Origin: Clostridiales bacterium
GTDB lineage: Bacteria > Bacillota > Clostridia > Oscillospirales > CAG-272
Direction of reading: 5' to 3'
NCBI GenBank assembly: GCA_022791685.1
Contig: JAAVZO010000008.1
Location: forward strand, 62,001 to 126,000
DNA: 64,000 nt
Below, one piece after another: positions 2,812 through 63,425 of this stretch (the stretch's first letter is position 1; each line of letters opens with the position of its first letter). The position numbers and the translations under genes were made by a program. The notes under the pieces are model-generated. The model did not search any database. It saw nothing but the letters and a program-made list of their open reading frames with translations, and was not told the DNA's origin.

Positions 2812-2904
2812 TAGACCTGTTCGATAACCTAATTTTAGCTTTTGAAAATGCTGATGAAATCAGCATTTTCAAAGTTTAATCGAGAGGTTATCGAATAGGT
2901 CTAA
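2812..2904. repeat. Nested palindromic element, family 1, copy A
   Basis: The outer arms TAGACCTGTTCGATAACCT and its near-perfect complement (18 of 19 pairs) enclose an inner hairpin with 14-bp perfect arms around GAA (TTGAAAATGCTGAT). It sits 8 bases after the stop codon of the lipoprotein gene, before a terminator. Related copies are at 27413-27505 and 40572-40614. Confidence 0.85.
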
Positions 2905-25981: not shown

Positions 25982-27415
25982 ATGAGCATCAAGTACAAAA
26001 AGGAAATATTTACCGCTGGTGAGATTGCTCAGATACTCGGTGTCGATAAAAACTGCGGCACCGGTATCAGCTGTATAACTACCGATTCCCGTGAGACCGA
26101 ATCAGGCGCACTGTTTGTCGCTCTCAAGGGTGAGCGCTTTGACGGAAACGACTATATCCCGCAGGCTATCGCGCGCGGTGCGTCGGTCGTTGTCGCTGAG
26201 CGTATGCCTTCTGAGCTTACGGATGATGAGCAGAAGCGTGTATATGTAGTCGATAATTCTGTCGTTGCCTTTGGCAAGATCGCAAAGGCATACAAGAGCC
26301 GTATAAATCCGCGTACTATTGCGGTTACCGGTAGTGTTGGTAAAACTACTACGAAGGAATTTATATATGCTGTATCTGGCGCGCGTTTTGTGACGCACAA
26401 GACAGAGGGAAATTTCAATAATGAGATCGGACTTCCGCTTTCGATATTCAAGATGCCGGAGTCTGCTCAGGTGTCGGTTCTCGAAATGGGTATGAGTCAG
26501 GCTGGCGAAATACATCATCTTACTACCATTGCAAATCCGGATATCGCGGTGATCACCAACATTGGCAACTCACATATCGAGAATCTCGGCTCGCGTGAAA
26601 ATATCTGCAAGGCTAAGCTTGAGATAATCGACGGAATGCCGGACGACGGATGGGTAATTCTCAATGCTGACGAGCCTATGCTTTTTGCTCAGAAAGGAAA
26701 GCTGAAGCAGAATCTTCTGTTTGTCTCACTTTCAAATCCTCAGGCAGACTACCGTGCGCTCAATATCCGTGAATACGAGGACAGCACAGAGTTTGACCTC
26801 GTCGCCAAAAAGCGCGTAGTTACAAATGTGCGTATACCGACTATCGGTCGTCACAATGTATATGACGCGACATACGCGTTTGCTGTCGGTGAACTGCTCG
26901 GCATGAGCGATGAGGAGATCAAGCGCGGACTTATTTCGTTCAGAAATACCGGAATGCGTCAGAATATATATGAGTACGGCGGAATCACGCTTATTGAGGA
27001 CTGCTACAATGCAGGACCTGAATCAATGAAGGCTGCGATCGATGTACTCGCAAAGCTGGCGGACAAGAATAATTGCCAGTCTATCGCAGTACTCGGCGAT
27101 ATGCGTGAGCTCGGCGACTATTCAAAGCAGCTGCATATGGAGATAGGAACGATGGTCGCATCGCGTCATATCTCGCAGCTTCTGACATACGGGCGTGAGG
27201 CGGAGAATATCGCGCTTGGCGCAATAAATCATGCTTTCAAACCAGACAATATCAGCATAAATACCAGTGTCGAGAATCCGGCAGCGTCGGCTCATGCTAT
27301 ATATAAGCTGCTTAACCGTGGAGACGCTGTACTTTTCAAGGCGAGCCGCGCGGTAAGACTTGAGCGCGTCATTGACGAATTGAAGAAGCTTATTGACGCG
27401 AAAGGTATTGAATAG
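25982..27415 (+). CDS. murF: UDP-MurNAc-tripeptide:D-Ala-D-Ala ligase MurF
   Basis: Adds D-Ala-D-Ala, the last step of the soluble precursor. The ATP site is AVTGSVGKTTTKE near residue 113; EGNFNNEIGLPLS and EMGMSQAGEI follow, both MurF hallmarks. EDCYNAGPESM near 340 and LGDMRELG near 377 lie in the C-terminal part. Length 477 is normal. Its TAG stop codon is the first three bases of a family 1 palindromic element. Confidence 0.96.
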   Translation: MSIKYKKEIFTAGEIAQILGVDKNCGTGISCITTDSRETESGALFVALKGERFDGNDYIPQAIARGASVVVAERMPSELTDDEQKRVYVVDNSVVAFGKIAKAYKSRINPRTIAVTGSVGKTTTKEFIYAVSGARFVTHKTEGNFNNEIGLPLSIFKMPESAQVSVLEMGMSQAGEIHHLTTIANPDIAVITNIGNSHIENLGSRENICKAKLEIIDGMPDDGWVILNADEPMLFAQKGKLKQNLLFVSLSNPQADYRALNIREYEDSTEFDLVAKKRVVTNVRIPTIGRHNVYDATYAFAVGELLGMSDEEIKRGLISFRNTGMRQNIYEYGGITLIEDCYNAGPESMKAAIDVLAKLADKNNCQSIAVLGDMRELGDYSKQLHMEIGTMVASRHISQLLTYGREAENIALGAINHAFKPDNISINTSVENPAASAHAIYKLLNRGDAVLFKASRAVRLERVIDELKKLIDAKGIE

Positions 27416-27505
27416 TCTTATTCGATAACCTTTTGATCAAATTTTAAAAATGCTGATAAAATCAGCATTTTTAAAAGCGGATATTCGGTTGTCAAACAAG
27501 TCTAT
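27413..27505. repeat. Nested palindromic element, family 1, copy B
   Basis: Outer arms: TAGTCTTATTCGATAACC and CGGTTGTCAAACAAGTCTA (about 14 of 18 pairs). Inner hairpin: TTTTAAAAATGCTGAT and its perfect complement around AAA. Compared with copy A, inner G-C pairs are replaced by A-T pairs, so the pairing is kept. It lies inside the dcw operon, between murF and mraY. Confidence 0.85.
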
Positions 27506-27534
27506 TAAGTTATTATTTGGAGAAATCAATTTAT

Positions 27535-31459: not shown

Positions 31460-31555
31460 AACATTGTCGCGATGTCCACCGTCTCTAAGGTGGCGGTGAA
31501 CATTTCGCATAAGTGGGGGATTTAATCCCCCACTTATGCCACGACAAGTTGAAAT
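31460..31555. repeat. Double-hairpin repeat element, family 2, copy 2
   Basis: TAACATTGTCGCGATGTCCACC begins the element. Hairpin one is GTCCACC-tail/GGTGG-GAAC-like, hairpin two the perfect GCATAAGTGGGGGATT / AATCCCCCACTTATGC. The outer stem is TTGTCGCG / CACGACAA. It ends GACAAGTTGAAAT. It lies in the leader of ftsQ. Confidence 0.85.
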
Positions 31556-31589
31556 TTATGTATTACGGTTTTTGAAGGCGGGAGGTTAA

Positions 31590-39416: not shown

Positions 39417-39600
39417 CAGTAAAAACTCATAATTTTTTTATTTTACAACTTTTTTGTTTATAGCGTACCGCGATATGCTATGTCGCAGCGGCGAGTGATT
39501 TCATATTATATAACTGTACGGGAATTATTTACCAGTACAATTCTTCGAAAGGAATTCCCGCCGCCTTGATTTGCGCCGGGATGAAAGGATTTTCGTTAAT
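39417..39600. other. Intergenic region ahead of dpaA
   Basis: No gene seen. CATATTATA near 39502 resembles the -10 of the mother-cell sigma factor SigK, which controls dipicolinate synthase genes in Bacillus, but no matching -35 was found. GGCGG-rich pieces flank an AAAGGAATTCCC stretch. AAAGGA at 39584 is the dpaA ribosome site. Confidence 0.35.
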
Positions 39601-40569
39601 ATGAAATTAACAGGCAACGCCGCTTTTATTGGCGGCGATCTGCGCTCGCTTGTCGCGGCAGGACATATCCGCGGCTCGGGCATTGAGACTCGTCTGTACG
39701 GATTTAGTGATCATAACAGCAGCAAAAAGAACGGTGTTGTCGATTCGCTCTGCTGCTCGTCATGTGCGGCGGATATAGGTGAGCTCGCACCGTATATCGA
39801 GCGCTATTCGAACCACGCAAAGCTTATGTCAACGCTTGATGATACGCTCGAAGGCTGCGATATCGCAGTACTTCCACTGCCATTTTCTCAGGACGGAGTA
39901 CACGCTTCAATGCAATTTTCTGACAGAGAACTGAGCCTTGATATGCTGATATCTGCGCTGAAAAAGCATAATGTCAAGCTGCTTTGCGGCGGCAAGCTCA
40001 GCGCTGAGTTTTGCGATAAATGTAATGCTGCCGGTATTCCGACATTTGACTATTATTCGCGTGAGGAATTTGCGATAGCCAACGCGATTCCGACGGCAGA
40101 GGGCGCTATTGCAATTGCGATGAACGAGCTTTCAGTGACACTCGATCGGGCTAAAGCGTTGGTTATCGGCTATGGACGAATAGGGCGTGTGCTTGCAGAT
40201 AAGCTGATGGCGCTCAACGCGGAAACGGTAGTGTCAGCACGCAAGGCTGAGGATTTTGCTTGGATACGTGCAGCAGGACTGCGTTCGGCCGCTACAGGTG
40301 AGCTGCGTGAACTTCTGCGCGACTTTACGCCTGACGTTATTTTCAATACAGTTCCGCACTGTGTGATCGGGCGCGGCGAGCTCGAGCTTATCAATCCGGG
40401 TACGCTGATAATCGACCTTGCGTCAAAGCCGGGCGGAGTTGATATCGGAACAGCTGGTGTGCTTGGTCACAAGGTTATCTGGGCGTTGTCTCTTCCGGGT
40501 AAGGTCGCACCGGTCACATCCGGAGTTATCATTGCCGATACCATACTCGGATATTTAGCAGAATTATAA
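39601..40569 (+). CDS. dpaA: Dipicolinate synthase subunit A
   Basis: Makes dipicolinic acid for the spore core, with DpaB, in the mother cell. Protein of 322 residues: N-terminal domain with NAAFIGGDLRSLVAAGH, then a Rossmann NAD(P) domain with VIGYGRIGRVLADKL near residue 185 and PHCVIGRGELELI near 260. ATG at 39601 fits AAAGGA upstream with 12-base spacing; the track's TTG start overlaps that site. Followed by dpaB after a family 1 palindrome. Confidence 0.9.
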   Translation: MKLTGNAAFIGGDLRSLVAAGHIRGSGIETRLYGFSDHNSSKKNGVVDSLCCSSCAADIGELAPYIERYSNHAKLMSTLDDTLEGCDIAVLPLPFSQDGVHASMQFSDRELSLDMLISALKKHNVKLLCGGKLSAEFCDKCNAAGIPTFDYYSREEFAIANAIPTAEGAIAIAMNELSVTLDRAKALVIGYGRIGRVLADKLMALNAETVVSARKAEDFAWIRAAGLRSAATGELRELLRDFTPDVIFNTVPHCVIGRGELELINPGTLIIDLASKPGGVDIGTAGVLGHKVIWALSLPGKVAPVTSGVIIADTILGYLAEL

Positions 40570-40571
40570 TA

Positions 40572-40614
40572 AATATGTTTGATAACCTAACTTTAGGTTA
40601 TCAAACAGGTCTAA
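40572..40614. repeat. Nested palindromic element, family 1, copy C (reduced)
   Basis: GTTTGATAACCTAA and its exact complement are nearly back to back (two-base loop), followed by CAGGTCTAATG as in copy A. The inner GCTGAT hairpin of copies A and B is absent. It separates dpaA and dpaB. Confidence 0.75.
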
Positions 40615-40647
40615 TGTTAAAATCTACAGAAAGGATTGATCATCAAA

Positions 40648-63307: not shown

Positions 63308-63399
63308 CGTTGCCACGATGTCTACGCCACTAAAGTGGCGTAGACATTTCGCATAAGTGGGGGATTAAATCCCCCACTTATGCTGTGACAAGTTGAAAA
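63306..63399. repeat. Double-hairpin repeat element, family 2, copy 3
   Basis: Begins with the last two bases of the SDR stop codon (TAACGTTGCC). First hairpin GTCTACGCCACT / AGTGGCGTAGAC (perfect), second hairpin GCATAAGTGGGGGATT / AATCCCCCACTTATGC (identical to copy 2), outer stem TTGCCACG / TGTGACAA. Ends GACAAGTTGAAAAT. Confidence 0.88.
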
Positions 63400-63425
63400 T
63401 TATTGAATAAAATTCGCGGAAGTAC

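Follow-up and report, generated by a model that had tools for sequence, protein, structure and literature searches.

Three palindromic elements in the window

The window analysed here, 64,000 nucleotides of a Clostridiales genome (G000; 2.49 Mb, assembly 85.7% complete), carries three copies of a palindromic element that an earlier note on this DNA had assigned to the REP or MITE kind. Copy A is a full-length copy of 92 bp on the plus strand at 2812–2903 (element proper 2813–2902) with arms of 19 nt that are 95% complementary, enclosing an inner hairpin (2841–2873, plus strand) with a perfect 15-bp stem and a 3-nt loop. Copy B, a divergent full-length copy of 92 bp on the minus strand at 27413–27504 (element proper 27414–27503; covariance model score 87.3 bits, E 2.8e-19), lies in the spacer between murF (25982–27415, plus strand; Mur_ligase_M 1.2e-48) and mraY, and its inner hairpin (27442–27476, plus strand) has a perfect 16-bp stem. 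Copy C (40570–40613) is a 44-bp short form located between dpaA (39571–40569, plus strand; DpaA_N 1.1e-17) and dpaB. Fold z-scores are -12.4, -8.2 and -6.4 for copies A, B and C, with none of 200 shuffles folding equally well. Copies A and B are thus present as originally described, copy C lacks the inner hairpin as had been stated, and the compensated inner-stem change reported between copies is real, the pair being G-C in A and A-T in B.

Read directly from the sequence, copy A is bordered by a target duplication, AAT at 2810–2812, an assignment that also draws on family statistics, and AAT at 2903–2905. The target duplication of copy C consists of AAT at 40568–40570, overlapping the dpaA stop codon TAA, and AAT at 40613–40615. 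Copy B has AAT at its left edge (27411–27413) and ATT at its right edge (27504–27506), which together give the pattern A|AT|T. The MurF protein ends in ...KLIDAKGIE, followed by TAG at 27413–27415, a stop codon composed of the target T and the element's first AG; the earlier statement that copy B supplies the murF stop holds.

Two further palindromic features were observed in the window. A terminator-like hairpin (AAAAGGAGACGCGTCAGCGTCTCCTTTT, 2905–2940) directly follows copy A between convergent genes, and a second dispersed palindrome, ACATTTCGCATAAGTGGGGGATTTAATCCCCCACTTATGC..CGACAAGTTGAA, is found in two copies (31500–31559 and 63344–63403) that are 92% identical and probably correspond to family 2 of the earlier note. 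The CGACAAGTTGAA tail of this palindrome also adjoins a solo arm of the first element at another locus of the analysis (L038).

A dispersed family with full-length and short forms

Genome-wide results were obtained from searches and from selected stretches of G000. A covariance model built from 22 aligned full-length copies (93 alignment columns, mean column identity 89%) identified copies at about 42 distinct places in G000 at E<=0.01, a figure that represents our own tally of the model's matches. The three copies counted earlier, from the window alone, are therefore correct for the window but not as a total. Of these copies, 26 have nearly the full length of about 92 bp, while the remaining 16 are shorter. 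Searching with the 17-nt arm pattern GACCTGTTYGATAACCT and allowing up to two mismatches returned 61 matches in G000 and none for the reversed-pattern control, with about 16 further solo arms that look like degenerate remnants. Two sequence subfamilies can be distinguished by their inner stem. The shorter forms (54 bp and 44 bp) would have arisen through loss of the inner hairpin, and the 54-bp form has probably multiplied by itself, because four such copies (L036, L043, L044 and L110) share a near-identical junction, GCTTTTGAAAGGTTAT, with up to two differences. One 92-bp copy (L115:138-229; G000:C45:60837-60928) has outer arms that are changed yet still matched (TAGGCTTG/CAAGCCTA); its inner hairpin is entirely different, while the architecture is kept (fold z -8.4). 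No published text giving the terminal inverted repeat (TIR) sequence in a relevant context was found, nor was the exact TIR found in viral contigs.

Element ends and target site duplication

The element proper is AGACnTGTTCGATAACC...GGTTATCGAACAnGTCT, and most copies have a 3-bp duplication of the target AWT at their flanks, an assignment based on flank statistics over 67 elements. The position two bases outside the left end is A in 64 of 67 elements and its counterpart on the right is T in 59 of 67; exact 3-bp duplicates were observed 40 times compared with 23.6 expected. The central base, A or T, coincides on the two sides much more often than chance would give (Fisher p 1.6e-7). Duplicated target bases, a check proposed earlier, are thus found, while the element end, previously placed at TAGAC, has to be moved: the T belongs to the AWT duplication and the element starts with AG. 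In genomes other than G000, the central base agrees in 26 of 27 elements (p 7e-7). Among 40 G000 copies, 24 show an exact AWT duplication and the central base agrees in 27; 12 of the other 13, including copy B, read AAT...ATT, and none of those 12 reads ATT...AAT. These AAT...ATT copies may represent either true 2-bp duplications or later changes.

Copies seem to begin and end in TA, which could suggest that the MITE duplicates TA and owes its mobility to an IS630/Tc1-mariner element. However, the TA is a junction artefact of the AWT duplication, for which reason a TA duplication was rejected, and the corresponding transposase (PF13358) is absent from nine genomes, most of which carry the ends. 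We regard mobilisation of this type as very improbable.

Genomic context and element-supplied stop codons

The earlier observation that all copies lie right after genes is true of the window but not of the genome. Among 30 entries for which both neighbouring genes were called, a set that includes one copy under two locus ids, 19 are flanked by tandem, 6 by divergent and 5 by convergent genes. In four copies the element supplies a TAG stop codon, namely those following murF and the genes for a nucleotide-binding protein, a RuvX-like protein and a lipoprotein, the latter three having been named by eye. If AWT sites in spacers were used evenly, 1.35 such cases would be expected, so that the excess is suggestive only. 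Mechanistically, insertion into AT-rich AWT sites would duplicate 3 bp. Since the duplicated site has T as its last base and the element opens with AG, an insertion whose target T is also the initial T of a stop codon would regenerate TAG. The murF stop probably arose in this way: the ancestral gene end would most economically have read GGT ATT GAT TAA, with ATT as target, and its TAA stop would have been replaced by TAG.

Mobility and distribution

Comparison at the species level showed that the murF–mraY spacer is free of the element in all five congeners and the dpaA–dpaB spacer in all three congeners where it was found. The congener loci around the mrp-like gene next to copy A contain no paired copy, and only a single isolated arm with three mismatches was seen there. 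The genome-wide search proposed in the earlier note has yielded further copies, and the congener sites are empty, rather than the element being confined to the window or present at identical sites in all relatives.

These data also bear on whether the repeats are intrinsic terminators or a common regulatory leader, repeated by selection without transposition. Each of the three copies in the window lies after a gene and has a strong fold, which would fit such a role, but no T run follows the element, copies are located inside the murF–mraY and dpaA–dpaB spacers, in which a terminator would cut mraY off, and a terminator-like hairpin of its own comes after copy A. Copies between divergent genes, congeners devoid of the element, target duplications and the lack of any Rfam match in the window likewise argue against this explanation, to which we assign hardly any probability.

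The ends themselves are patchily distributed. They were found in 10 of 295 genomes of the family and are missing from most. The congeners G001 and G003 have one or two related copies each, with the same ends and different interiors; another genus contains elements of about 92 bp, again with a different interior and the same ends, and elsewhere the elements measure 170–400 bp. When GTDB genomes were scanned for exact occurrences of the end TAGACNTGTTCGATAACC, many matches were obtained in Clostridia, termite-gut Treponema and Planctomycetales, often paired as ends of 117–199-bp elements. In a single Planctomycetales genome (MS499-59; L225, L229-L273), numerous elements of 163 bp and some of 187 bp have these ends and represent another large MITE family of the IS5/ISL2 transposase type. 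Elements of about 190–208 bp with the same ends were also observed in genome G031 (L139, L141-L144); GTCATTCTGAGCG...CGAAGTCGAAATTTTGCG is repeated across these copies, which suggests that the repeat is partly MITE interior.

A transposase type with matching ends

Elements of the ISL2 group duplicate ANT. From the ANT duplication, an IS5-family transposase (ISL2-like, DDE_Tnp_4) was therefore predicted and then looked for; ANT duplications have been stated for bacterial IS5 elements (PMC4482050). DDE_Tnp_4 was searched in 30 genomes from the TAGACNTGTTCGATAACC scan. In Clostridia SUG1651, an 898-bp element (L324) with both ends and two overlapping ORFs encloses a DDE_Tnp_4 gene. A 901-bp element of Treponema (L327) likewise contains a DDE_Tnp_4 gene and two overlapping ORFs and is flanked by ATT/ATT, and a third locus (L337) represents a decayed IS copy with a DDE_Tnp_4 gene between such ends and the same ATT/ATT duplication. 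L329 and L278 (Planctomycetales) represent internal-deletion derivatives that have kept these ends. The IS ORFs match HTH_Tnp_4, DDE_Tnp_4 and the NCBIfam IS5 family models; the scores for NF033581 (7.1e-33 and 1.1e-26) fall below NCBI's cut-off because each hit represents half of a split ORF. End recognition would seem to be strongly conserved, since the transposases with these ends are only 37–52% identical between phyla (L324 compared with L327: 52% for ORF A, 37% for ORF B).

Other candidates were rejected. Five further DDE_Tnp_4 loci (L325, L330, L331, L333 and L335) lack the ends, as do all loci found for PF01609 (IS4/IS5 DDE_Tnp_1) and PF13340 (IS427-type DUF4096). TIR pairs 1.6–3.8 kb apart in G000 and relative genomes were also considered; the three such intervals in G000 whose ORFs were read enclose ordinary genes. 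No PF13359 or PF01609 transposase was found in the 85.7% complete G000 assembly, and DDE_Tnp_4 gave five weak matches across the 295 genomes of the family, none of them in G000. A transposase with matching ends, which the earlier note had proposed to look for, thus exists in other genomes but not in this assembly. The IS elements and the window MITE have interiors that are unlike and only the ends of about 17 bp in common, and because of this the IS elements are best ranked as relatives of the mobiliser and not as a proven parent of the MITE.

The REP half of the earlier proposal, taken here as a palindrome of REP/BIME type moved by a tyrosine (RAYT/IS200-like) transposase, would account for a short, palindromic, mostly extragenic element present in many copies. 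It is contradicted by exact TIRs, target duplication and a DDE-type transposase with the same ends elsewhere. In addition, the arms are plain TIRs beginning with AGAC and not hairpins with a tetranucleotide foot of the GTAG/CGTC type, and the 92-bp unit exceeds the size of a REP, a hairpin of 20–40 nt. This was the least probable reading of all and was rejected, as were the terminator and IS630 readings.

Further copies, empty congener sites, target duplication and transposases with matching ends in other genomes instead favour the MITE half of the original proposal, and we are highly confident that the repeats constitute a MITE family moved by an IS5/ISL2-type transposase. The 19-bp arms agree with this class, as does the 92-bp unit, which leaves no room for a transposase gene; an autonomous partner in the same genome, usual for MITEs and not required by definition, was not found in the G000 assembly. 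The family itself is new, while the kind of element is already known. For the G000 copies, we infer that movement occurred in trans through a transposase of the IS5 family (ISL2/DDE_Tnp_4 type) that would recognise the terminal inverted repeat AGACnTGTTCGATAACC.

The inner hairpin

Compensated changes at the inner stem occur mainly in one pair (G-C 12, U-A 6, A-U 2). It is conceivable, though we consider it doubtful, that the inner hairpin is actively maintained, through RNA-level selection or template-switch correction, and that one transposase family uses two duplication modes, ANT and an ISL2EU-like A|AT|T, in one genome. Maintenance is proposed because the sequence changes while pairing is kept across species; RNA-structure selection and template-switch correction of quasi-palindromes both explain such kept pairing. 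According to a more specific scenario, the element is a MITE by origin whose inner hairpin is now kept for an RNA role, such as stabilising mRNA or serving as a target of RNase III, in operons like murF–mraY and dpaA–dpaB. RNase III cleavage of Correia elements and effects of ERIC elements on transcript levels have been described (PMC10969869). A hairpin is retained, with another sequence, in congener copies (fold z -9.0 and -7.6) and in the aberrant L115 copy (z -8.4), and compensated inner-stem changes were counted in 10 cells compared with 2.8 in shuffled data (0/500 shuffles), although these counts are inflated by the relatedness of the sequences. On the other hand, double changes affect three pairs only and are no better than shuffles (78/500), hairpin-less short forms persist and one of them seems to have multiplied, and template switching at hairpin tips could give the same compensated changes without selection. 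An RNA role is thus an unlikely addition to the MITE interpretation.

Relation to known elements and implications

The window MITE shares its terminal repeat and AWT/ANT duplication with ISL2-type IS elements of the IS5 family (HTH_Tnp_4 + DDE_Tnp_4), from which it differs in carrying no gene and having only the ends in common. The L324 and L327 elements (~900 bp, two overlapping ORFs) resemble ISCaa3 of Amoebophilus, an ISL2-group element of 914 bp with two ORFs and a -1 frameshift (PMC3196728). Among eukaryotic autonomous elements of the PHIS superfamily, ISL2EU inserts at A|AT|T, the pattern of 12 of 40 G000 copies, and Pangu duplicates ANT (PMC4482050); the likeness to the window MITE noted here is one of duplication pattern. 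IS-derived prokaryotic MITEs such as MITEAba12, QMITEs and Nezha are likewise short, gene-free and present in many copies, with TIRs and target duplication, but differ in their ends and parent IS; the window MITE has an extra inner hairpin that makes nearly the whole element palindromic. Correia (NEMIS), ERIC and RUP elements are also intergenic palindromic bacterial MITEs, about 100 bp in size, which can become part of transcripts, whereas their ends differ from those of the window MITE and they duplicate TA.

Through their ends, an unannotated repeat of uncultured gut Clostridia and short look-alikes in Treponema and Planctomycetes can be tied to one transposase type, so that such repeats can be named instead of being mistaken for regulatory RNAs. 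The combination of an AWT target and an AG start would allow the element to land on stop codons with TAG rebuilt and proteins left untruncated, and thus to enter gene ends by simple means, essential operons like murF–mraY included.
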